Below, in pieces: positions 1,392 through 13,143 of a stretch of 56,501 nt of DNA. Origin of the DNA: Pseudoruegeria sp. SK021 (GTDB lineage Bacteria > Pseudomonadota > Alphaproteobacteria > Rhodobacterales > Rhodobacteraceae); NCBI RefSeq assembly GCF_002119405.1, contig NZ_MTBG01000023.1, positions 1 to 56,501 of the forward strand, in the 5' to 3' direction. The notes beneath the pieces are model-generated. The model saw only the letters and a list, made by a program, of their open reading frames with translations, did no database searches and was not told the DNA's origin. The position numbers and the translations under genes are program-made. The stretch's first letter is position 1, and every line of letters begins with the position of its first letter.

Positions 1392-4300
1392 TTAAACGAA
1401 GTCGAAATCACTGATCCCAAGATCGGTCGCGGTCACGCCAACAAGGGTGATCTGGTGCGCCGCATTGCCGACTTCATGAAGAACCGTATTGGCGCCGTCT
1501 TGGGTAATTCTGAGGTCCGACAGCGCGTTAATGGTGGAGTGGCCGGTGAAGTCCAGCCGGTCCGTGCCATCGGCATAATCCTTGACCACGTCCTTGCCGA
1601 ACGCGTTCGACCACGCAAAGCTGTCCGCTCCAGCCCCGCCAAGATAGAAGTCGTCTCCGGCCTGACCTTCGAGGAAATCATTGCCGGTCGACCCGATCAG
1701 CGCGTCGTTTCCAGCGCCGCCGAACATCACGTCATTGCCCGTGCCGCCGTAGAAGATGTCGCCAGAGGCGCCGCCGGTCAGCGTGTCGTTGCCGGTTCCT
1801 CCGGCGATGGTGATTGCGGTGGCCATGCCGGTGGCGTCGATGACATCCGCGCCGTGAAGGCCATTGATCCGCTCCAATCCCAGCCAACTGCCGATGGAGA
1901 TCGTCAAGCCGGTGGTGACGGTGATGACGGCCTTGTCTTGGCCGGCCCCCGCATTGCGGACCTCGTCGCCGGATTCGCCGATCAGGAAGACGTCATCCCC
2001 TGCGCCGCCGAAGAACAGATCGTTGCCTGAATTGCCGAGCAACGTGTCGTTTCCAGCGCCACCAATCAGCGTGTCGTTGCCTTCGCCACCGATCAAGACG
2101 TCGTTGCCGAGACCACCGGTCAACTTGTCGTTGCCGCCATCACCGAACAACAGCAGATCGCTGGTCTGGCTCGACCCATCGACCACGTCATTTCCGGTAT
2201 AGCCGTTGACGCGCTCGACGCCGCTCCAGCCGGTCATGTTCAGGTTGACCCCAGAGGCGTCGTTGAACTGGGCCTTGTCATAGCCAACCGTGCCGGTATC
2301 GGTCACAATATCAGACCCAGAGACGATGAACTCGTCCGCATTTTCGCCGCCGTCCATCAGGTTGGCGCCGAACGAGCCAATTAGCAGGTCGTTGCCGTCG
2401 CCGCCGAGCAGGGTGTCATTGCCCGATCCGCCGACCAACAAGTCATCTGCATAGCTGCCGTCGAGGTAATCGTCGCCCGCGTTCCCGTACAACACATCGA
2501 AGCCACCATTGCCATAGAGGCTATCGTTGCCGTTGCCGCCGTTGATCGTGTCGTCGCCGGGGCCGCCGCTCATCTTGTCGTGGCCTGAGGGATCGTTGAA
2601 CATGTCGTCGCCGACTGTGCCGGTCAAAGTGCTGTTGCCAGCCCCGCCCGTGACGGTAATGCCGGGGTTGGCAATCTCGATCGCCAGCGTTTTCAGCGAG
2701 ACATTGCCTGCGGCATCTGTGGCCCGTACGGTGATCGTGCGCTCGCCCTTGCCGCTATAGGCCGTTGCCAACGTGGCCTGCTGAAGGTTGCCCGTACCCG
2801 TTCCGGCCGCGACATAGCCGCCGCCATCGCCCCAGTTGATCGCGAGTGACGCGCCTGCTTCTGCGGTGAAGGCGATGGTCGGGGTGGTGTCCAAGGTCGC
2901 GTTGTCGGTGTTCGAAATGCCGGTGTCGCTGGCGTCGGTCAGGTCAATCTGAGTCAGCGACGGCGCACGGGTGTCCAGCGTCACAGTCATGGATTGGGTC
3001 GTCGACAAGCCGCCGGCATCGGTGGCGCGCACTTGAATGGTCTTGGTCCCCGTGGTGCCATAAGCCCCGGACAACGTCAGTTGCTGAAGCAACCCGGTGG
3101 CCGTTCCCGCGTTGATGAACCCGGCGCCATTGCCCCAGTTCACGGCCAGCTTCGAGCCCGCCGTGACTGCAAATTCGATGGTCGGGGTCGTATCCGACGT
3201 CACGCTGTCCCCAGCCGTGCCAGTGTCGCTCGCGTTGGACAACGCCACGTATCTGGGTGCCAGATCGAAAACGCTGACGCCATCATCCCGGAAACCGGCG
3301 GTGAGAAGGTAGGTGTTGCCGTCCACGGTCACGGCGGTTTCGGAATAGATGTATTCCATCGCGACCGAGCTGTTGTCGTCCAGATTTGCAATATTGGTCA
3401 AACTGCCATTCGCGGCGACGGAAAACACGCTGACGCCGTTATCGGTAATGCCGCCCGCAAACAGCAACGTTTGGCCGTTCGCCGTGATCGTGCTGAGCGA
3501 ACTGACCGCATCCAAATTCATCGTGCTGGTATCCGAGACGTTGAACACGTTCGTCAGGATGCCGTTGGAATTGATGGAAAACACGCTGATGCCGTCATCA
3601 AGGGTTCCGGCGGCGAACAGATAGGTTTTGCCGCCAATGACGGTCGTTGTCAGCGCACTGGCCCCGGCCAGATGCGTGGTCGCGGTGTCGAATACGTTCT
3701 GTATCGAGGTCAGGCCCGCGCCATTGACTGAAAATGCGCTGATGCCGTGGTCGTCGCCTCCGGCGCCGTAAAGATAGGTTTTGGCGCCGATCGTGGCGGT
3801 GACCAACGCTTGGACTCCGTCCAGCGCCCGTGCGCCGGTGTCGAAAACGGTCGCGACGCTGCCGAGGCTGCCGCCCGATCCGATCTTGAACATGCTGATC
3901 CCGTTATCGTCGGAGCCAGCGGTGAACAGATAGGTTGAAGATCCAATGGTTGTCGAAGTGAGGGCGCGCACATCTTCTAGCGCGAGGCCAGCCGTGTCGC
4001 TCACATTGCCGACAGTGGTCAGGCGGCCGTTATTGGCGACCGAAAATACACTGAGCCCATTGTCCGAGCTGCCTGCTGCGAACAGATAGGTTGCAGTGCC
4101 AACTTTGGTGACATGAAGGTCTTCGATCTGACTAAGATTCAGCGTCGCTGTGTCCGTAATGTTGAAGACACTCGTCAATGCACCGGATGCGCCAAGGGAA
4201 AACACGCTGATGCCGCCGTCGTAATATCCGCCGGCGAACACATAGGTGGTGGATCCGACAACCGCGGTGGTCAGACTCTCGGCACCGTCCAGCTGCAAGA

Positions 4301-4925
4301 CATCATTGTCAGATACGGTTTGGATCAGTTCATAATTGTAAAGAAAGGTCGGCTTGGCCAAGCGCGGCGCGTAGGATGCCATGGCCGCTGGCGCGAAGGC
4401 GGGGGCCAGACCACCGGGCAGTACAAAGCTGTCTGGATTATGATCTCCGACAATGCCGTCCGTTCCGACCACCGTCCGATTGACAGCGTCTGACAGTGCG
4501 GCAATCAGGGCGATTCCCTCAGGGCCGGCAGCAACTTCGCACGCCGTCAGGGCAACCGTGGCATTCGGGGCCAGCGCCGCTCCGATCCGTGCCAGAACAT
4601 CCGCCTGACCCGGAAGGCTGGCAGTGGTCAGTGCCGTCATCCCAAGAAACAGGGCGCCGGGCTGACCATGGGCGACGATGTGCACTGCCGCATAAGGCGT
4701 ATCGGCGGTTTCCAGCGCGGCTGCGATCGCATCAAGCGGGCAAGTGCCGGTGGACAACTGCAAAACAGTATGGCCCGAGGCCAACCCTTGGGTGAGGGTG
4801 GCGGCTTGGGGAACATTTGCGTCCAGAACCACCAGCGCGGATGCGCCGCTGGGCTGTGTTGCGTCACGCTCAGTGTGTGATGCAGACGCGTCCGGGCTCA
4901 GAACAGAGATCGACATTGGTACCAT
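1392..4925 (-). CDS. Large secreted RTX protein: DUF4347, seven propeller-like repeats, Ig-like repeats, calcium-binding tail
   Basis: 1177 residues. Residues about 30-170 match DUF4347 (VVLDANV, HIVAHGQPGALFLG, LTACEVA). Residues 205-560 hold seven repeats of about 52 residues, each with a core like YLFAAGxxDDGISVFSV (near 228, 280, 332, 385, 436, 487 and 540). The number suggests a seven-bladed beta-propeller. Two Ig/Bap-like units (about 565-655 and 656-750) contain DTTPTI and INWGDGGG. From about 758 to 1105 there are many RTX nonapeptides (GGxGNDxLxG). The C-terminus (FGKDVVKDYADGTDRLDF and after) resembles the type I secretion signal region of Rhodobacterales RTX proteins. There is no N-terminal signal peptide, in keeping with type I export; no exporter genes are in the window. 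An alternative start is Met4 (base 4916). Role in adhesion or the extracellular matrix is inferred. Confidence 0.88.
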   Translation of the reverse strand: MVPMSISVLSPDASASHTERDATQPSGASALVVLDANVPQAATLTQGLASGHTVLQLSTGTCPLDAIAAALETADTPYAAVHIVAHGQPGALFLGMTALTTASLPGQADVLARIGAALAPNATVALTACEVAAGPEGIALIAALSDAVNRTVVGTDGIVGDHNPDSFVLPGGLAPAFAPAAMASYAPRLAKPTFLYNYELIQTVSDNDVLQLDGAESLTTAVVGSTTYVFAGGYYDGGISVFSLGASGALTSVFNITDTATLNLSQIEDLHVTKVGTATYLFAAGSSDNGLSVFSVANNGRLTTVGNVSDTAGLALEDVRALTSTTIGSSTYLFTAGSDDNGISMFKIGSGGSLGSVATVFDTGARALDGVQALVTATIGAKTYLYGAGGDDHGISAFSVNGAGLTSIQNVFDTATTHLAGASALTTTVIGGKTYLFAAGTLDDGISVFSINSNGILTNVFNVSDTSTMNLDAVSSLSTITANGQTLLFAGGITDNGVSVFSVAANGSLTNIANLDDNSSVAMEYIYSETAVTVDGNTYLLTAGFRDDGVSVFDLAPRYVALSNASDTGTAGDSVTSDTTPTIEFAVTAGSKLAVNWGNGAGFINAGTATGLLQQLTLSGAYGTTGTKTIQVRATDAGGLSTTQSMTVTLDTRAPSLTQIDLTDASDTGISNTDNATLDTTPTIAFTAEAGASLAINWGDGGGYVAAGTGTGNLQQATLATAYSGKGERTITVRATDAAGNVSLKTLAIEIANPGITVTGGAGNSTLTGTVGDDMFNDPSGHDKMSGGPGDDTINGGNGNDSLYGNGGFDVLYGNAGDDYLDGSYADDLLVGGSGNDTLLGGDGNDLLIGSFGANLMDGGENADEFIVSGSDIVTDTGTVGYDKAQFNDASGVNLNMTGWSGVERVNGYTGNDVVDGSSQTSDLLLFGDGGNDKLTGGLGNDVLIGGEGNDTLIGGAGNDTLLGNSGNDLFFGGAGDDVFLIGESGDEVRNAGAGQDKAVITVTTGLTISIGSWLGLERINGLHGADVIDATGMATAITIAGGTGNDTLTGGASGDIFYGGTGNDVMFGGAGNDALIGSTGNDFLEGQAGDDFYLGGAGADSFAWSNAFGKDVVKDYADGTDRLDFTGHSTINALSDLRITQDGANTVLHEVGNAAHQITLVGVTATDLGISDFDFV

Positions 4926-5109
4926 TGGTCATGCGGCCTTTGCAGCTGGGTCGCGTCATGAGATGTAAGGGATCATCTACGCAACAGAGTTAAACGTCCA
5001 GACGCTTAGATGAGCGCCTGAGGTCTTGCAACAGGCCGTTAGATAAATGACCGTTTTGTGGCAAAATGTGATCGACCGGCACCGCGCAAGCCGCTGTATG
5101 ATGCAGCCG

Positions 5110-5147
5110 CGCGGCCCGGACTTCGTGGGGTTCTGGCGCGGGCCGCG
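5110..5147. repeat. Inverted repeat (9-bp arms) between gloA and the RTX gene
   Basis: Bases 5110-5118 (CGCGGCCCG) are perfectly complementary to 5139-5147, with a 20-base spacer. It sits about 60 bases past the stop of the minus-strand glyoxalase gene and could help end its transcript, but there is no T-tract. Nothing else was recognised in 4926-5205, which must contain the RTX promoter. Confidence 0.35.
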
Positions 5148-5205
5148 GTCCGATCAGGGTCCCGCACCCCTGCGCTTTAGTTCCGATGCCGCATCCGGCG
5201 ACGGC

Positions 5206-5634
5206 TTACCAGTGGCCGGTATTTTCCATGCTGGCCCATGGTTCTTGCACCGGCAAACGATCGCCCATCTGAAGCAGTTCGATCGAGATATTGTCGGGCG
5301 AGCGTACGAACGCCATGTGGCCATCACGGGGCGGGCGATTGATGATCACACCGTTGTCTTGCAGATGCTGACACATGTCGTAGATGTTCTCGACCTCATA
5401 GGCCAAATGCCCGAAATTGCGGCCGTCCGCAGGCAGGGCATCATCCCCATCCCAGTTATGGGTCAGTTCGACAGGGCATTCGGATTGACCGGGAGGGGCC
5501 AGAAAGATCAGCGAAAAGCGGCCGGCCTCGTGATCGACACGGCGCGTTTCTTCTAATCCCAGAAGGCGATAGAATGCCATCGATGCCTCAAGGTCTTTGA
5601 CGCGAACCATGGTGTGCAGGTATTTGATCTTCAT
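5206..5634 (-). CDS. gloA: Lactoylglutathione lyase (glyoxalase I), VOC family
   Basis: 142 residues from ATG 5634, which has GGAG eight bases upstream (5643-5646). A longer reading frame begins at 5694 but lacks that site, and the family normally begins at MKIKYLHTMVRV. The four expected metal ligands of glyoxalase I are visible: His in YLHTMVRV, Glu in CPVELTHNWD, His in NFGHLAYEV and Glu in ISIELLQ. The enzyme isomerises the methylglyoxal-glutathione hemithioacetal to S-lactoylglutathione in the cytoplasm. Two VOC halves are visible (about 5-60 and 70-125), as in single-module GloA dimers. It stands alone, downstream of the thyX remnant on the other strand. Confidence 0.9.
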   Translation of the reverse strand: MKIKYLHTMVRVKDLEASMAFYRLLGLEETRRVDHEAGRFSLIFLAPPGQSECPVELTHNWDGDDALPADGRNFGHLAYEVENIYDMCQHLQDNGVIINRPPRDGHMAFVRSPDNISIELLQMGDRLPVQEPWASMENTGHW

Positions 5635-5825
5635 GTGGGGCGCTCCATTCACTGACTCAATCGGGGCTTTGCCGATGTAAGCTGGGTCTATCATTGGGGC
5701 GGATCGGTGAGAACCGGGAAGTTACGCGGGGTGTCGGGCTTGGACGCGAAGACGGAGGTTGGCCCTTTTGCGTTTCGGAGGCTATGGAAGGCGATAACGT
5801 CTGATTCCTGAACGCGAGTCCGCCT

Positions 5826-6330
5826 ATGCAGTCGACCCAATACCAACTGGACGAGATCGCCGGCTTGTGTGCCAATCCGGTGCCGACCCTGCGCGCCGTC
5901 GGCCCCGGCATGGAGATGCGTTTTTCCACGGCGCATGAAGTGCTGGATCACGACTTCGTCAGGGTGGTCGATTAAATGGGCAACGACTCTGTGATCGTCC
6001 AAGCGGCCCGTGTGAATGCCGGTGCAGGCACCAAGAAGGCGCGCAACGATGCGGGCTTGATCCACTATCTGATGCGGCATTGGCAATCGACGCCGTTTGA
6101 AATGTGCGAAATGACGTTGCACGTGAAATTGGCGTCGCAATATCTCGTCAACAAGCAAGGACGTGGCACCGTTCTGGGGGGCGAGGACGCCGCCCGGGGG
6201 CTTGCGCCTTTGAAATCCAACGCCGACTGCCGCGATGATCACTTTGCGGCGATGCTCGGCCAAGGCGGCCATCAAGGTCTGGCCGGGGTGACTCTGCCTG
6301 ACAACAATAAGGCCCGATGGTATCGGAAAA
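5826..6330 (+). pseudogene. thyX: Decayed thyX (flavin-dependent thymidylate synthase)
   Basis: Residues from ATG 5826 (PVPTLRAVGPGMEMRF, VLDHDFVRVVD) match the start of alphaproteobacterial ThyX. An in-frame TAA at 5973-5975 stands where the family has Tyr (VVDYMGDD). The frame continues with MGNDSVIVQAARV, LIHYLMRHWQSTPFEMCE and LHVKL. At about 6131/6132 the sequence jumps to YLVNKQGRG and EDAARGL, which in intact ThyX lie some 36 residues further on. The lost stretch contains the signature RHRTANxNEYSxRYS, which binds FAD and dUMP. Similarity fades after LPDNNKARWYRK at about 6329, and the C-terminal third is missing. A stop, an active-site deletion and 3' loss make function very unlikely. 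The alignment is from memory of family sequences. An intact thyA follows. Confidence 0.85.
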
Positions 6331-6600
6331 CCTCAGGTAACCAGTTGACGGCGGAGTTTTACCTAGCCTTCTCAAGAATAAAGCGACTTTTCATAGAGGA
6401 AAATTCTACCCTCTTTTTGAGACGGATTGATCCAGTCCAGCAAACAAGAACCGGCGCGCTAAACCCTGTTTGACTTAAGGGCGAAGGGTGCCAGTTATCG
6501 AAAACCGCTATGGGCCAGTACGAGTAGGCTCTAATCGCATGGCAGTTCGATCCAAGTCTCGGCTCGGTGTCAGTGTTGAAAATGAAAGACGAGAACCAAA

Positions 6601-7434
6601 GTGCGACAGTATCACGAAGCATTGAATGTCATTTTACAGAATGGCGAAGACTCCTCGGATCGTACCGGTACGGGTACGTTGTCTTATTTCGGATTGCAGT
6701 CTCGTTACCGCCTTGCCGACGGGTTCCCGCTGGTTACCACTAAGAAGTTGCATCTGCGGTCCATTATTCACGAGCTGCTATGGTTTCTGTCCGGCGATAC
6801 AAACATAAAGTATCTGAAAGAAAACGGCGTTTCGATTTGGGATGAATGGGCTGATGAGAACGGCGACCTAGGCCCGGTTTATGGGCATCAATGGCGCTCT
6901 TTCCCTGCGCTTGAACCGACAGATCAGCATCTGAATGGAGAGCCTTTGTTCAAAGGGCGTGAGGTCGATCAGATCGCCCAGCTTATTGATATGATCAAGA
7001 CATCGGCTGACAGTCGCCGATTGATCGTTTCAGCTTGGAACCCTGGCGATGTGCCGCGCATGGCTTTGCCGCCATGTCATACGATGTGGCAAGTGCGCAT
7101 TCTGAACAACAAACTGCACCTGCAACTCTATCAGCGATCGGCAGATATGTTTTTAGGGGTGCCGTTCAATATTGCCTCCTATGCCCTTCTTCAGGTGATG
7201 CTGGCCCATGTGACCGGCTACGAACCCGGCGATTTTGTTCATACTTTGGGCGACGCTCACATCTATTCAAACCACATGGATCAGGTGCGGTTACAGCTAT
7301 CTCGAACACCCAAGCCGTTGCCCGAAATCAAAATTAAACGCGATGTGTCATCGATTTTCGATTTTCGCTACGAGGATTTTGAGGTCGTGGGTTATGATCC
7401 GGACCCGGCAATTCGTGCCCCCGTGGCGGTTTGA
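6601..7434 (+). CDS. thyA: Thymidylate synthase ThyA (folate-dependent)
   Basis: 277 residues from a GTG start at 6601; the predicted N-terminus [15 protein letters not shown] lines up with ThyA starts, and no ATG in frame serves better. Visible motifs: DRTGTGTLS (residues 20-28), the GPVYGHQWR segment, LPPCHTMWQ with the catalytic Cys159, [18 protein letters not shown], and HIYSNHMDQ. ThyA methylates dUMP using methylene-tetrahydrofolate and yields dihydrofolate, so it needs a reductase; folA follows after three bases. A short insertion (about residues 103-120) lengthens it relative to 264-residue E. coli ThyA. The base composition of 6340-7911 looks poorer in GC than its surroundings, which fits acquisition by transfer. 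Bases 6331-6600 hold no gene I can recognise; thyA's promoter should be there. Confidence 0.97.
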
Positions 7435-7437
7435 CCG

Positions 7438-7911
7438 ATGATTACTTTGATAGTCGCACGCGATGCAAACGGCGCCATCGGCCGCGAGGGCACCATTCCT
7501 TGGGATGTCCCTGAAGATTTGAAGTCGTTCCAGCGAGAAACGCTGGGGGGCGCGCTGATTATGGGACGCAATACTTGGGACAGTCTTCCTGTTAAGCCAT
7601 TGGCAAGACGTTTGAATATCGTGGTGTCGTCGCGTCCGGACGCAGCGGACACCGTTGTGCCTTCGGTGGAGGCAGCTGTGAAACTGGCATCGGATCAAGG
7701 CTATAACCGAATTTATGGGATTGGCGGCGCCCGGATTTATCAAGAGATGGTCGCGATCGCAGACAGGCTGTTGATCTCAGAAATTGAAATCAAAGTTGAG
7801 GGGGCTGATACGTACTTTCCCAAAATCGACCTGAACAATTGGCGTATGGTCAGTGACAGGCCGTTGCGGATCATTGATCCGAAATGTCGCGTGCGTGAAT
7901 TCATGCGGTGA
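7438..7911 (+). CDS. folA: Dihydrofolate reductase
   Basis: 157 residues, typical DHFR length. The N-terminal strand ITLIVARDANGAIG, the substrate-site stretch IPWDVPEDLKSF (acidic residue pairing with the pterin), IMGRNTWDSLP, NIVVSSRP and the GIGGARIY nucleotide-binding glycines are all present. It reduces dihydrofolate to tetrahydrofolate with NADPH, regenerating what ThyA consumes. It starts three bases after the thyA stop, so the two are co-transcribed and translationally close. It shares the lower-GC look of thyA. The pair probably arrived together and made the neighbouring ThyX dispensable. Confidence 0.96.
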   Translation: MITLIVARDANGAIGREGTIPWDVPEDLKSFQRETLGGALIMGRNTWDSLPVKPLARRLNIVVSSRPDAADTVVPSVEAAVKLASDQGYNRIYGIGGARIYQEMVAIADRLLISEIEIKVEGADTYFPKIDLNNWRMVSDRPLRIIDPKCRVREFMR

Positions 7912-8073
7912 TTATATCGTGAAAATCTGAAACTGTTATTGCCGTTCCATCCTTCGGGAAGGCGTCTTTGATATCACCTACCCGGTCCCAACAAAACGTG
8001 TAGGTGCCGAGTTAGGAGATGTCTGCCCCCTGAGGTTACGGCGACACGCGCGGAACGATATGAAAGGTGAACC

Positions 8074-8409
8074 ATGACTGCACTGACCCTTGTTGGGCTA
8101 AAAACCTGTGACACCTGCCGCAAAGCGCGTAAAGCGCTGACCGAGGCCGGGCACGACGTCACCTTTCAGGATGTCCGCGAGACGCCGCCGACCGTTGACG
8201 ATCTTGCCGGGTGGCTAGAGGCATTTGGCAGTGATCTGGTGAACCGCAAATCTACCACTTGGCGCGGGTTGTCTGAGGCCGAGCGCGCCTGTCCGCCACT
8301 GGCCCAATTGCAGGCGCATCCGGCATTAATGAAACGTCCTGTCCTTGCGGCGGACGGCGCGCTTTATCTGGGATGGGGTCCTGAGACGCAGGCGGCCCTG
8401 CTGGGGTGA
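8074..8409 (+). CDS. ArsC/Spx-family thioredoxin-fold protein
   Basis: 111 residues, usual length for the ArsC/Spx/YffB group. AAGGTG lies upstream of the ATG. The N-terminal strand TLVGLKTCDTCRKARKAL carries a CxxC (Cys12, Cys15) at the active-site position; true arsenate reductases usually have a single Cys there with CxxxxxR. DVRETPPTVDDLAGWLEAFG and NRKSTTWRGL follow the family pattern. A glutathione- or thioredoxin-linked reductase role is plausible, but no arsenic genes are nearby, so arsenate reduction is not claimed. It converges on the bufferin operon with four bases between the stops. The stretch 7912-8073 before it shows only short weak hairpins. Confidence 0.85.
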   Translation: MTALTLVGLKTCDTCRKARKALTEAGHDVTFQDVRETPPTVDDLAGWLEAFGSDLVNRKSTTWRGLSEAERACPPLAQLQAHPALMKRPVLAADGALYLGWGPETQAALLG

Positions 8410-8413
8410 CCGA

Positions 8414-8962
8414 TTAACGCTGGCGCAGAACGAAACGATCGACAGAAATCGGACCGGCGCCACGGACGATCAAAACAATCAGAACAAACACCCAGAAGGT
8501 GCGTTGGTCCATGATCAACGCACCCGACGCGCTGTCGAACCAATGCCCGATCGTCGCGGCATCGGCGTTATGGCCCCAAATGTCGGTCAGGCTTTGTACT
8601 GTGATGAAGCCGATCATGCCGATGGCGGCAAGGCGGGTGAACAGGCCTATTACGATTAGCAACGGCAAGATGAACTCGGCCCAAGTGCCGAACAGCGCGA
8701 TCAGATACTGCATCGTGCTCATCTGACTGACGTCGTAACTGGCCGCCTCCATCGCCTTGGGAAACATCTGCACATAGGCACCGGACGAGGGGAACAGGAA
8801 ACCGAACAGGCCTGTGCCGAGCTTGGTCATGGCCGAGCTCCAGAAGTAACCGAGCAGCACGGCGGCAAAGACAAACCGGGCAAGGCTGGGCAACAGCCAA
8901 GAGCGCGTGGCCCGCTCTAGCAGGTCAAAGGCCCAGTTGTGGAAGCGAATAAGTGCGGTCAT
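8414..8962 (-). CDS. DoxX-family membrane protein, last gene of the bufferin operon
   Basis: 182 residues with four predicted membrane segments (about 28-48, 85-107, 110-130 and 155-172), the DoxX layout. Its ATG overlaps the upstream stop by one base (TGATG), so translation is coupled to the BufC-like gene. DoxX proteins often end operons that encode DUF2282 peptides, MNIO enzymes and DUF2063 partners. Proposed roles include redox partner or quinone-linked functions in the inner membrane; none can be read from this sequence. Residues between segments 1 and 2 form a longer periplasmic loop than in short DoxX proteins. Confidence 0.85.
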   Translation of the reverse strand: MTALIRFHNWAFDLLERATRSWLLPSLARFVFAAVLLGYFWSSAMTKLGTGLFGFLFPSSGAYVQMFPKAMEAASYDVSQMSTMQYLIALFGTWAEFILPLLIVIGLFTRLAAIGMIGFITVQSLTDIWGHNADAATIGHWFDSASGALIMDQRTFWVFVLIVLIVRGAGPISVDRFVLRQR

Positions 8963-9717
8963 CAGCTTGGGCCTTTGGTCAGGGATGTCAGGGCGCCGCG
9001 AGCCAGCAAAAGGCCAAGGGCTGGGGTCAGGTCGAACAACGGGTCTGCATCGGTCGCAGCGGCAAGGGCCACGCCGAATGTTGCAGCATTTTTTAAAGAT
9101 TGGATGAAGGCGGATTGGGCCGGATCAAGCAGATCCAGCATCGGATCGAACTCTGGCCGCGAAATCAGCACCGTTTGGGCGCCGGGTGTCGGGACCGGCG
9201 CGCCGGGTGTCATATTGCGCTGCCAGATGGCGTGGATGGGATAGGGCGATGTCCGCAGTGTGACCGCAGGCGCAAAGGTGAACCGGGTCGCCATAAGCGC
9301 GTCCTGCGACAGGTCTTGCAGGCAAGCCGGATCAAGCGGCGGCGCATCAGCGGCGTGATAGGCGCGGCGCAAGTCCAGTTCCAGCCGGGCGACATCGGCA
9401 AGATAGGCCAGATGCTGTGCTGGTGGGAATTGGGCCAGAAATTCGGGGAACTCTGCGCCATACAGCGCGAGGACCGGGCTTTGGGGGGGGTGCTGGCGTA
9501 GAAACAGCCCGGCCATGGCCTGAAAAAAGGCGTCCCCCACCAGTTTTCGGACCACTGGAAAGCCGGTCTCAAGCGCCTCTGTCAGGCTGACCACCACGTT
9601 GTTGCGATAGACATCAAAGCGTTTGCCCGCAGGGCGGCCATCTGGACCGGTCAAGCCAGCCGGAACCGCCGCAGCGGGATCAAGCAGGGCGGCGACAAAT
9701 TCGGACTGTCCGGTCAT
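8962..9717 (-). CDS. bufC: BufC/HvfC-like DUF2063 partner of the MNIO enzyme
   Basis: 251 residues from ATG 9717, which overlaps the stop of the MNIO gene by four bases (ATGA). A longer frame upstream exists only because it overlaps bufB. The N-terminal region [18 protein letters not shown] and the stretch [19 protein letters not shown] are diagnostic of the DUF2063 domain, here about residues 5-95. A second, more variable domain follows. In bufferin and HvfA pathways this protein presents the precursor peptide to the MNIO enzyme. Position directly after bufB supports that role. The symbol follows the bufferin naming; the function in this organism is inferred. Confidence 0.88.
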
Positions 9718-10583
9718 TGGGGCACGGCTGGCGCGCTTGCGCAGAGGACACGGTTGGCTTGCAGGGCCTCGGCGGCCAGAATCGGCCATTCCGGTACGTC
9801 ATTGTCCCATTCGATCAGGGTTGGCCGTCGTCCCGCCCGAGAAATGGTGTGGGCGTAGAGGGCCCATACCGGGTCAACCACCGGTTTGGCATGGCTGTCG
9901 ATCAGCAGCGGCGCACCGGTATCGTCTTGATCCTCGTCATGACCGCCCAAGTGAATTTCACCCACATGCGCCAATGGAAAGGCATCGATATAGCTGACCG
10001 GATCAGTATTTTGGTTTGTGGCGGACACAAAGACGTTGTTCACGTCAAGCAAAAGCCCACAGCCGGTCCGCGCCACGATCTGCGCCAGAAAATCGACCTC
10101 GGTCATTTCGGATTCGGCAAAGGCCAAATAGCTGGAGGGGTTCTCAAGCAACATCTGCCGTCCGAGGGCGTCCTGAAGCTGGGTGATATGGCTGCACACG
10201 CGGGCCAAGGTCGTCTCGGTATAGGGCAGGGGAAGCAGGTCGTTCAAGAAGTGGGGCGTATGTGTCGACCACGCCAGATGCTCGGAAAAGGATGCCGGAT
10301 TAAGCCAGCCCACAAGATGCTTCAACCGCGCCAAATGCGCTGCATCGAGGGGCGCATCGCCCCCGATCGACAAACCAACCCCATGCACTGAAATTGGAAA
10401 TTGCTCGGCCAGACGGCGCAGTTGTGCCTGTGGTCGTCCGCCATCCCCCATGTAATTCTCGGCGTGAATTTCCAGCCAAGCAACAGGACCGGGGGCGGCG
10501 ATCAGATCCGAGAAATGGTCGGCCTTATACCCGACACCAACCAGGTCGGGCAGGGCGGGGCGGCGTGAGCTGGCATCAAACAT
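9714..10583 (-). CDS. bufB: MNIO (DUF692) peptide-modifying enzyme BufB/HvfB-like
   Basis: 289 residues, standard for DUF692. The TIM-barrel family motifs are in order: [17 protein letters not shown] (His40 and neighbouring acidic residues), [12 protein letters not shown] (His67), [29 protein letters not shown] and LIEWDNDVP. These supply the His/Asp/Glu ligands of the multinuclear iron site. Members convert cysteines of a precursor peptide to oxazolone/thioamide or thiooxazole groups that bind copper. The precursor gene lies 73 bases upstream, separated by a hairpin; the DUF2063 partner overlaps downstream. The context makes the assignment firm, while the exact chemistry is inferred from relatives. 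Confidence 0.93.
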
Positions 10584-10616
10584 GGCGCATTCCTGATCTG
10601 TTGCCCATCGTGAAGA

Positions 10617-10646
10617 CCGGCCCCGTTGGGGAAACAGCGGGGCCGG
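10617..10646 (-). promoter_or_regulatory. Intercistronic hairpin between bufA and bufB
   Basis: Bases 10617-10625 (CCGGCCCCG) pair perfectly with 10638-10646 around a 12-base loop. It lies 10 bases after the bufA stop and has no following T-run on the minus strand. It is therefore more likely a transcript-stabilising or partially terminating hairpin that lets the precursor be made in excess of its enzyme than a full terminator. Confidence 0.6.
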
Positions 10647-10656
10647 GGACGGCCGC

Positions 10657-10965
10657 TTATGTCGACGGCAGGTCGCGGTCGAGGGCGGTCAGAGACCCGT
10701 GACGGTCATCGCCATTGGCCATGGCAGGGAGTTCCATTTCCGTGCAGCTGCCTTTGGTGACGAGGGTCCATGCGTTGCCCTGATAGTCCACTTTCGAGGT
10801 GCCGGCGCAGGTGGTTCCGGGGCCTGCCGCACAATCGTTTTTACCGGCCAGCGACACGCCGAAGCATTTCTCTTGCTCCTGAGCGGCGGCTGGGGTTCCG
10901 GCAAAGCCGGAGACGGCGGCGGCGACGGCCCCAAGGATTGCGAAGGTTTTGATATTGGTCGACAT
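10657..10965 (-). CDS. bufA: Bufferin-type RiPP precursor (BufA1/HvfA, DUF2282)
   Basis: 102 residues from ATG 10965, with AGGAA seven to nine bases upstream; an ATG six bases earlier is too close to that site. A Sec signal peptide (about 1-28: [22 protein letters not shown]) is followed by a small mature region with four Cys in the DUF2282 arrangement: [21 protein letters not shown], and GSCTEMELP. The motif YQGNAW between Cys3 and Cys4 is also typical. Modified Cys residues of such peptides bind copper in the periplasm or outside the cell. It heads a four-gene minus-strand operon. Upstream bases 10966-11140 should contain the promoter; no convincing ECF-type or sigma-70 site was found there. 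Confidence 0.92.
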
Positions 10966-11140
10966 GATCATTTCCTTATGGAAGTTGAAGGTCGTGAGTG
11001 CCGCATCATGGTGGCGACATCGTTATCCTAAACCTTCCCCAAGGTCACATGATACACACGGGGGCGTGAATAACCCCACTGTCATGGAATGTTACGTCAA
11101 TGCTGCATCTGCATAAAATTTTTCGTTAGGAAACAATGCG

Positions 11141-11196: not shown

Positions 11197-13143
11197 TTAC
11201 AGCAAATCAGGCGCGCGGGCCTCTTTGGCAAGGTCCGCGACAATGGCTTCAAGGGTCTGCGTTGCAGTTTGTTTCATACCCAATCGCCGGACAGTGACGC
11301 TGCGCTCTTCCACTTCGCGACCGCCACAGGCAAGGATGACCGGCACTTTGCCAACGGAATGCTCACGCACCTTGTAGTTGATCTTTTCGTTGCGGGTGTC
11401 GGCCTCTGCGCGGATGCCTGCGGCCTTCAGCAGGGCCACAACTTCATGGACGTAGTCGTCCGCATCCGAAACAATCGCGGCCACCACAACCTGACGCGGC
11501 GCCAGCCAGAACGGCAGCTTGCCCGCGTGGCTTTCAATCAGAATGCCGATGAACCGCTCGAACGAGCCCAGCACAGCGCGGTGCAGCATGACCGGACGGG
11601 CCTTGGCGCCATCTGCGCCGATAAAGGTCGCATCAAGCCGTTCGGGAAGGTTCGGATCGACCTGCAGGGTGCCGCATTGCCAGTCCCGGCCGATGGCGTC
11701 GGTCAGAACGAATTCCAGCTTGGGACCATAGAAGGCGCCTTCGCCTTCGCTGATCTCATAGGCGTATCCGGCCGCTTTGCAGGCGTTGCCAAGGGCGTGT
11801 TCGGTCTGATCCCAGCTTTCGTCGGTACCGATGCGCTTTTCCGGGCGAGTCGACAGCTTGATCCGCCAATCGGTAAAGCCCAGATCGGCATAGATTCCGG
11901 CCAGAAATTCGATGAACTTCTTGGTTTCGGCTTCGATTTGCGCGTCGGTGCAGAAAATATGCGCATCGTCTTGGGTAAAGCCGCGCACCCGCATGATCCC
12001 GTGAAGCGCGCCCGAAGGTTCGTAGCGGTTGCACGATCCGAACTCGGCCATGCGCAACGGCAGGTCGCGATAGGATTTCAGCCCTTGGTTGAAGACCTGC
12101 ACATGGCAGGGGCAGTTCATCGGCTTCAGCGCGTTGACGGATTTTTCGCGGGCATGTTCTTCATCCACTTCGACGATGAACATATGCTCTTGATAATTGT
12201 CCCAATGGCCTGATTTTTCCCACAAAACCCGGCTGACGACCTGCGGGGTGTTCACCTCGACATAGCCATCGGCGCGCTGTTTGCGGCGCATGTAATCTTG
12301 CAATTCGGTGTAGATGGTCCAGCCGTTCGGATGCCAGAAGATCTGGCCGGGGGCCTCTTCTTGCATGTGGAACAGGTCCATTTCGCGGCCCAACTTGCGG
12401 TGGTCGCGTAAGGCGGCCTCTTCCAGCATTGTCAGATGGGCTTTCAACTGGTCCCGGTTTTGGAAGGCGACACCGTAAATCCGTTGCAACATCGGGCGGT
12501 TGCTGTCGCCGCGCCAATACGCGCCGGCCACAGACATCAGTTTGAACGCGTCGGCGGGGACTTGGCCGGTATGCTGCAAATGCGGACCACGGCAGAGGTC
12601 CTGCCAGTCGCCATGCCAATACATCCGCAGCGGTTCAGACCCGGGGATCGCCGCAATCAGTTCGACCTTATAGGGCTCATTATTGGCCTCATAATGCGCG
12701 ATGGCGCGGTCGCGTTCCCAGATTTCGGTGCGCACCGGATCCCTGAGATTGATGATCTCTTTCATCTTTTTCTCAATGGCGCCAAGGTCTTCTGGGGTGA
12801 ACGGTTCGGCGCGGTCGAAGTCGTAATACCAGCCATTGGCGATCACCGGGCCGATGGTGACTTTGACGTTGGGCCACAGGTCTTGCACGGCGCGGGCCAT
12901 GATATGGGCCAGATCATGGCGGACCAGTTCCAGCGCCGGACCGGCATCTTGCAACGTGTTGATGGCGATGCTGGCATCGGCGTCAATCGGCCATTGCAAA
13001 TCCCAGTGCGCCCCATTGACGGTCGCGGAAATTGCCTTTTTAGACAGGGATTTAGAGATGCCTTCGGCCACTTCGGCCGGCGTGATGCCTGCGGGATACG
13101 CGCGCGCATTGCCATCGGGGAAAGTGAGAGTGACGTCTGCCAT
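11197..13143 (-). CDS. thrS: Threonyl-tRNA synthetase
   Basis: 648 residues, full length. Domains in order: N-terminal TGS (about 1-62, [14 protein letters not shown]), editing/SAD domain with [11 protein letters not shown] (about 78-90) and the YYDFDR segment, class II catalytic core with [10 protein letters not shown] (zinc Cys) and [15 protein letters not shown] (motif 2), then the anticodon-binding domain after [11 protein letters not shown]. It charges tRNA-Thr in the cytoplasm. SD GAGGAGG lies just upstream of the ATG. It is a single-gene unit closed by a strong terminator; its upstream region carries unusual phased repeats. Confidence 0.98.

Follow-up and report, generated by a model that had tools for sequence, protein, structure and literature searches.

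How does a bacterium come to exchange one essential enzyme for an unrelated one? The question is raised by a 56,501-nucleotide stretch of DNA from Pseudoruegeria sp. SK021 (Rhodobacteraceae; contig NZ_MTBG01000023.1 of assembly GCF_002119405.1, positions 1 to 56,501), here called the window, in which a decayed gene for the flavin-dependent thymidylate synthase ThyX lies upstream of intact genes for the folate-dependent thymidylate synthase ThyA and for dihydrofolate reductase (DHFR), FolA. An earlier note, made from the letters of this DNA, had proposed that thyA and folA were acquired as a unit and that their arrival relieved selection on thyX. Comparison with relatives supports the acquisition and refines it. 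Very probably, a resident thyX was replaced by a thyA-folA pair at the same chromosomal site, and the decayed thyX was left behind; the nearest relatives of the pair lie in the same family, and the event is not a one-off. The swap is recurrent, as relatives carry either thyX or thyA-folA at this very site.

With ThyA, methylenetetrahydrofolate serves both as the carbon source and as the reductant, and the resulting dihydrofolate has to be reduced by FolA, whereas the ThyX reaction yields tetrahydrofolate and does not strictly depend on FolA; ThyA and FolA are called a functionally coupled unit (PMC9931769). In a thyX deletion strain of Rhodobacter capsulatus, full complementation needed both thyA and folA of R. 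sphaeroides, and thyA alone complemented partially (PMC3352284, citing Leduc 2007). A thyX cell without folA would thus be handicapped by thyA alone, and not by thyA-folA, because the dihydrofolate made by ThyA must be reduced by FolA.

The thyX gene of the window, located at positions 5826-6347 of the forward strand, reads in frame 1 as a ThyX protein with an internal stop (translated-frame reading). The Pfam domain Thy1 matches it with 33.6 bits (cut-off 24.8) over positions 1-70 of 191, with one TAA inside the match. Over 177 residues, the translation is 62% identical to the intact ThyX of the congener G006 and 59% to that of the congener G005 (the best identities are 63% with G241 and the 62% with G006), and the DNA of 5834-6127 matches the thyX of G006 at 73%. 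The TAA, at 5973-5975, takes the place of a tyrosine that is conserved in intact ThyX. At 6127-6130 lies the scar of an in-frame deletion of 114 bp, or 38 codons, seen both in DNA, where the match with G005 skips from 9761 to 9878 while the window advances from 6127 to 6130, and as a gap of 38 in the protein alignment at about 6129. It spans the RHRTANVNEYS stretch, and the intact ThyX proteins of the congeners retain this signature. The triplet CTG stands at both ends of the lost stretch, as seen in G005, which is compatible with a deletion between short repeats. Four more codons are deleted in frame at about 6279, and about the last 88 of the 304 codons (counted on G006) are gone, since no ThyX-like sequence follows after about 6347. 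The in-frame stop, the loss of the whole RHR...NEYS signature and the lost 3' end had all been described in the earlier note, and the alignment with related ThyX that it called for bears them out.

The remaining part of the gene has also changed in a manner unlike that of its intact relatives. Of the 165 columns that are at least 97% conserved in the other ThyX rows, the relic keeps 62, substitutes 29 (stop included) and deletes 74. Among the columns it still covers, 18 of the 72 that are at least 97% conserved are substituted, against a maximum of 3 and a median of 0 in 41 intact ThyX, which are mostly the best-scoring ones, so that the conserved columns may look stricter than they are family-wide. 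Differences from G006 amount to 0.225 at the first and 0.205 at the second codon position, compared with 0.132 and 0.093 between G005 and G006, while third positions differ proportionally less (0.53 against 0.44). This pattern is one of apparent loss of constraint. There is no whole-domain Thy1 match, and both the C-terminal part and the RHR...NEYS motif, which we take to be the signature of a functional ThyX, are absent; homology, disabling lesions and relaxed constraint, the marks of a ThyX pseudogene, are all present. Judged by these lesions, the stretch from 5826 to about 6347 is a dead thyX. It is also the single ThyX trace of its genome, as no second Thy1 match was found by Pfam search in the whole draft (3.97 Mb in 189 contigs, listed as 100% complete with 0.48% contamination), where the earlier note had wanted a second thyX to be sought.

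The genes that follow are in a different condition. The thyA gene (6601-7434, forward strand) starts with GTG and encodes 277 amino acids, matching PF00303 with 394 bits over positions 2-266 of 266; its translation contains the segment PPCHTMWQ, whose cysteine is presumably the catalytic one. Only 3 bp further, folA (7438-7911, forward strand) encodes 157 amino acids and matches PF00186 with 152.8 bits (cut-off 25) over positions 1-140 of 159. Pfam searches found no further ThyA or FolA match in the genome, and both genes are therefore single copy. The description of thyX as directly followed by intact thyA and folA holds for the intactness, given the near full-length domain matches, and fails for the contact, as a junction stretch of about 255 bp (6348-6600) separates relic and thyA. 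Among 15 loci compared, this junction has no match except for about 15 bp before thyA, which align with G224. No Rfam match was found in the window at gathering thresholds, promoter-like sites are at chance level, and terminator-like sites number 4, compared with 2.4 ± 1.6 in shuffled sequences. None of the latter was found on the forward strand between the start of the relic and thyA, and transcription of the pair from the old thyX promoter would therefore be possible.

The pair also differs from its surroundings in composition. The GC content at third codon positions (GC3) is 56.1 in thyA, 58.2 in folA and 56.9 in the pair, whereas the 21 other genes of the window have a mean of 73.6 (standard deviation 4.8, minimum 64.3), which confirms the lower GC content suspected at the outset. 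When the GC3 of rpoB is subtracted from that of thyA plus folA, the window genome gives −16.8, the lowest of 47 genomes (z = −3.7), and the 46 others give a mean of −0.8 (standard deviation 4.4, lowest −10.5); the 47 are those of 53 thyA genomes from which ThyA, FolA and full rpoB could all be extracted, divergent ThyA types included. Since pair GC3 tracks rpoB GC3 in the 46 others, the pair lies near host composition in other lineages but not in this one. The expectation of a codon use unlike that of the host is borne out by GC3 and not by codon-usage distance, a measure that runs high in short genes: the values for thyA (0.119) and folA (0.140) are high among, but still within, those of the other window genes (0.052-0.151).

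Gene trees tell more about where the pair comes from. Its nearest kin is found in G224, a genome of another genus, with 84.1% identity in ThyA, 72.6% in FolA and 87.7% in RpoB, whereas the four congeners that carry the pair show 74-79% in ThyA and 55-59% in FolA, with 92% in RpoB (for the three congeners where it was found). In the tree built on concatenated ThyA and FolA sequences of 47 genomes, the window groups with G224, G216 and G033 on starred branches, and the pairs of the congeners are spread over three further positions: G001 with G002 (starred), G003 with G255 (starred) and G004 with G203 (weak, 83/64). The tree covers 47 of the 53 thyA genomes, G008, G057, G092, G142 and G156 having been dropped for their divergent ThyA and G268 for a fragment. 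Mapped on it, the label "genus" requires four changes, three of them forced by starred branches. A vertically inherited thyA-folA in the genus was tested and rejected: forcing the five congeneric pairs into one clade costs 98.5 log-likelihood units (p-value of the approximately unbiased test, p-AU, 0.0003), while for a constraint that unites G000, G001 and G002 the rejection is weaker (p-AU 0.015). In the rpoB tree, by comparison, G000, G001, G002, G003 and G006 form one genus clade with a Shimodaira–Hasegawa-like approximate likelihood ratio (SH-aLRT) of 100. That tree has 72 of 80 genomes, with no match in G004, G005, G059, G083 and G196 and partial ones in G030, G033 and G108, so that the genus members G004 and G005 are absent from it. 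Composition alone does not explain the grouping of the window, because the other low-GC rows, G276, G266 and G115, fall apart from it. With a GC3 foreign to its surroundings and a gene tree in conflict with the host tree, the thyA-folA pair is foreign to the lineage of the window genome.

The source of the pair is probably to be sought inside the family. In a search of a named collection with ThyA, the first 12 titles among the best 80 of at least 595 stretches, at 73-79% identity, bear names of genera that we take to belong to the same family (Rhodobacteraceae or Paracoccaceae in the titles), and this is the reason for that placement; among the same best 80, the first title outside the family is Kaistia, at 67%. 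A phage donor finds no support, as the best phage ThyA reaches 63.6%, below the 84% of family members. No plasmid donor was found among 72,556 plasmid records, the best match being 76.5% on a 1.26-Mb replicon of Tritonibacter mobilis; a 285-kb Pseudosulfitobacter plasmid carries a thyA-folA pair at 70%, and the pair can thus sit on plasmids. The tree that the earlier note had asked for, then, gives the non-vertical grouping it anticipated and near kin within the family, but not the actual donor. None of the three findings that the note had set against its own proposal, namely a complete thyX elsewhere in the genome, a thyA-folA pair of vertical grouping and host codon use, or a relic aligning poorly with ThyX, was made, and the acquisition is supported for this reason.

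The neighbouring genes show that the exchange took place at a shared address. To the left of the relic lies a glyoxalase-like gene (PF00903, 60.6 bits; 5206-5694, reverse strand), a conserved left neighbour of either thyX or thyA-folA. To the right are an ArsC/Spx-like gene (PF03960, 38 bits; 8074-8409, forward strand), present on the same side in G001, G005 and G006, and thrS (11197-13143, reverse strand), which is found downstream in G001, G003, G004, G005 and G006 and, within the stretches fetched, in 23 of 39 loci outside the genus. Two congeners, G005 and G006, carry an intact thyX between the same glyoxalase and arsC-thrS and have no ThyA match. In G001, G003 and G004, thyA-folA occupies the glyoxalase site; the glyoxalase and thyA matches are separated by about 170-220 bp there, without any thyX relic. 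Inside the genus, the glyoxalase site is thus used in 2/2 thyX genomes and 4/5 thyA genomes (window included); outside it, of the loci with wide flanks, all 20 with thyX and 18 of the 19 with thyA have a glyoxalase no more than 3.3 kb upstream, the set being chosen non-randomly, thyA by nearness to the ThyA of the window or by convenience and thyX mostly by score. Because the glyoxalase is upstream of both in nearly all loci, the unrelated thyX and thyA-folA share one chromosomal address, and winner and loser occur at the same place in relatives. No description of such a shared site in the family was found among the literature titles listed, from which no claim of being unpublished follows.

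The wider family was sampled with 295 genomes, one per genus, to which the congeners were added (seven genomes, the window's included). A ThyX match is present in 232 of the 295, the window relic not counted and some being partial (e.g., G204 and G218), and a full ThyA in 49; six further PF00303 matches are partial and of another type. Among the 53 thyA genomes (49 of the sample and 4 congeners), the window genome alone has any ThyX match. The absence of relics at 80 thyA loci (53 genomes, 13 of them represented twice, and 14 named contigs) rests on whole-genome searches, some of the loci having flanks of only a few hundred bases. FolA accompanies ThyA in 49/49 genomes and is found in 2/232 ThyX genomes (G060 and G245); in 46 of the 49, folA adjoins thyA within about 110 bp, the exceptions being G268, where it lies 1.2 kb from the full ThyA, and G008 and G092, where it is elsewhere in the genome. 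ThyX and ThyA exclude each other almost completely in the family, and this, together with the adjacency of folA and thyA, fits the dependence of ThyA on FolA. On the rpoB tree, whose 72 genomes are a thyA-rich choice, the thyX/thyA state requires 16 changes, with six of them forced by well-supported branches; shuffled labels give a mean of 20.3 changes, and 12 of 500 shuffles are as low as 16. The outermost branches carry thyX, which suggests, with G060 as the root chosen by the analyst, that thyX is the older state.

Several other observations concern the same enzymes. In G001, a partial PF00303 match (G001:C49, L081 3730-4242) lies in an open frame and is about 25% identical to ThyA; similar partial matches occur in G026, G069, G103, G117, G256 and G282, the open frames of all these measuring 296-435 amino acids. 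They represent another thymidylate-synthase-like family, and these six genomes also have ThyX. In G268 (G268:C81, L286 6444-10316), the native thyA is split in two, and a divergent ThyA of 298 amino acids lies between the halves, along with a transposase-like fragment named by eye; folA is kept beside the C-terminal half. With its glyoxalase at 12693-13127, this is a second fossil at the same site, from another genus, in which one thyA replaced another. Divergent ThyA are also found in G008, G092, G057, G156 and G142. The idea that ThyA favours larger genomes (PMC5954106) gained no support: among eight thyA/thyX pairs or near-pairs that adjoin on the rpoB tree, a small sample picked by eye, the thyA genome was the larger in two.

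Taken as a course of events, the ancestor would have made deoxythymidine monophosphate (dTMP) with a ThyX whose gene adjoined that of the glyoxalase. There, downstream of or into thyX, a thyA-folA pair would then have entered from a different lineage within the family, with G224 as its nearest sampled relative, presumably in one event and before the death of thyX. From then on ThyA would make dTMP while oxidising tetrahydrofolate to dihydrofolate, and the adjacent FolA would regenerate tetrahydrofolate, so that the pair could replace ThyX in one step; ThyA and FolA presumably supply the activity in the present-day cell. Relieved of selection by the arrival of the pair, as the published biochemistry would lead one to expect, thyX would have lost its function through the stop codon, the deletion in the catalytic core, the loss of the 3' end and relaxed substitution, and become a pseudogene. 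Most likely, the left junction lies inside or just after thyX, which left the relic in place.

The manner of arrival can be narrowed further, if tentatively. In one version, to which somewhat less than an even chance is given, thyX was truncated by the incoming DNA itself, which would have recombined homologously on the side of arsC and joined illegitimately within thyX, so that the gene lost its 3' end and its function on arrival, and the stop and internal deletion came later; one-sided homology plus illegitimate joining is a named process. It accounts for ThyX similarity stopping at about 6347 (in a comparison of 5100-8500 with 15 loci, the thyX of G005 and G006 among them, the last thyX match ends at 6287), and relic-free loci such as those of G001, G003 and G004, with their short spacing, are expected if the left crossover there fell in or before the glyoxalase gene. 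However, the same picture would result from a plain insertion downstream of thyX and a subsequent deletion, the junction for the most part has no counterpart in the loci compared, and the clearest foreign-looking gene on the right is thrS, not arsC. A sequencing or assembly artefact, which the 189 contigs of the draft might suggest, is the least probable explanation of those weighed here, in view of the many independent lesions, the two in-frame deletions and a flanking gene order that matches congeners on both sides.

The order of events could also be turned around. If thyA-folA were ancestral in the genus, thyX would be a later, failed intruder in decay, and five of the seven congeneric genomes (window included) do carry thyA. 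This is very improbable: the pairs of the genus do not form one clade, two congeners lack a ThyA match and retain thyX, intact, at this site, the outermost rpoB branches (with the chosen root) carry thyX, and it is the pair, and not the relic with its GC3 of 72.8, that is foreign in composition. Just as improbable is a prior decay of thyX under thymidine salvage or a transient thyA elsewhere, with the pair as a later rescue. The sequence cannot date the decay against the arrival, and the few family genomes that show no thymidylate synthase indicate that salvage-dependent life may occur, but the window genome has no other trace of ThyA or ThyX, and thymidylate synthase is described as essential in virtually all species analysed (PMC5954106). 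Replacement of a resident thyX by an incoming pair is preferred to both.

A number of observations weigh against this replacement or complicate it. The relic forms a long branch in the ThyX tree, with too little signal to be placed; a single clade with G005 and G006 is unrejected (p-AU 0.79) and undemonstrated, and the relic is too decayed for the tree to show that it is the old thyX of the genus, as it presumably is. Some nodes of the ThyA and FolA tree are weak, and its bootstrap had not fully settled; the nearest kin sampled are only 84% (ThyA) and 73% (FolA) identical, which means that the actual donor is not among them. Since thyA alone partly complemented R. capsulatus, FolA may be an aid and not a strict requirement. 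The rule of one of two synthases has unexplained exceptions, as 14 of the 295 genomes show neither ThyX nor ThyA at an E value of 0.001. When these were searched again with one ThyA and one ThyX protein (E values up to 10), only G164 gained a real trace, residues 1-40 of thyX with no downstream part found, and the others gave nothing or chance-level matches. Completeness reaches 90% or more, with contamination of no more than 5%, in six of the 14, and 13 are drafts in many contigs; G107, a single contig of 4.4 Mb listed as 100% complete, shows no ThyX and no ThyA beyond chance level, and is either a thymidine auxotroph, the holder of an unknown enzyme or a gap in the data.

The flanks add to these difficulties. 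The pair of G002 is off-site, with no glyoxalase, arsC or thrS in 16 kb around it. In the thrS tree, limited to the 29 rows whose match in the fetched stretches was long enough, the window falls in a set of 14 rows (95*) without any other congener, near G210, G299, G244 and G033, while G005 forms a long branch; a glyoxalase tree lacked resolution. A single swap is thus too simple a history for the neighbourhood. The thrS of the window has a host-like GC3 of 71.6, and the order arsC-doxX-buf-thrS is that of many other genera, the intervening genes being absent in G001, G005 and G006; G003 and G004 gave no arsC match near the pair. Either the imported segment was longer, or thrS would have a history of its own. 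Further to the right, the genes are congener-like: o17074 is 57-60% identical in congeners and 42-47% in the four other genomes matched, and o19356 84-89% against at most 80% elsewhere.

Beyond the single event, the site may be viewed as a two-state exchange locus of the family, in which thyX and thyA-folA behave as non-homologous, almost mutually exclusive "alleles" repeatedly traded between genera, and the window is the one sampled swap with a loser that can still be read. The odds on this broader view are about even. On this account, recombination in the conserved flanking genes, the glyoxalase on one side and arsC to thrS on the other, would direct the swaps to one site, gene transfer agents or plasmids would possibly be the vehicles, the linkage of folA to thyA would make a single-step swap viable, and G268 would be a second round.

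Some features of the region are recorded in their own right. The off-site pair of G002 (L078) is the sister sequence of the on-site pair of G001 and reflects a later move or a separate landing. Either the window thrS (11197-13143) would belong to an enlarged import, or it marks another mosaic stretch. Between arsC and thrS, at 8414-10971, genes for DoxX, DUF2063, MbnB/TglH/ChrH-family and DUF2282 proteins follow each other in an operon-like row, presumably of the bufferin type, which is variably present among congeners. At 1392-4925, the window encodes a protein of 1177 amino acids with repeats rich in GG.GND-like motifs, which we take to be of the RTX type; it has no match in the congener stretches compared and only 31% matches in G013 and G224.

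That an unrelated protein has taken over from an essential enzyme is usually deduced from patchy distributions, and the type of event described here is already known. The value of the present case lies in a readable fossil, in before-and-after states within one genus and in the recurrent use of one site. One small genus and its surroundings offer the dead predecessor, the incoming pair, congeners in both end states and the closest relatives of the pair, which opens the order of events to study. A testable idea is that a one-step swap of an essential gene requires incoming DNA that brings the complete functional unit and is placed between shared flanking sequences; it is testable because FolA goes with every ThyA and hardly any ThyX, and both states share one address in nearly all loci. 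Lineages that have switched would also be expected to be sensitive to DHFR inhibitors that thyX relatives without FolA tolerate.

Among known systems, the displacement of ThyA and ThyX by one another (Stern et al. 2010, as cited in PMC9931769 and PMC5954106) is like the window in that unrelated enzymes serve one essential reaction, with lateral transfer and a patchy distribution. Unlike that displacement as these sources present it, the loser persists in the window as a relic at the site of the winner, the nearest kin of the winner lie within the family, and in many genera the two states use a single position on the chromosome. Genomes with both thyA and thyX have been read as a transition stage (PMC5954106), and about twenty Asgard metagenome-assembled genomes carry both genes, with thyX often partial (PMC9931769). 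These resemble the window as a switch caught between two states, with partial thyX in thyA-carrying genomes, and differ from it, on the accounts cited, in that here only one gene would be able to function, the relic is next to the pair that replaced it, and both outcomes are found at this site among congeners. The R. capsulatus complementation is a laboratory version of the event, in which FolA was likewise needed for full growth, and differs from it in being engineered, while the event of the window is natural. R. capsulatus presumably belongs to the same family as the window genome. In gene displacement in situ, finally, a foreign gene takes the chromosomal place of a resident gene, as at this locus; unlike there, the exchange here is non-homologous, sets one gene against two and recurs across a family.

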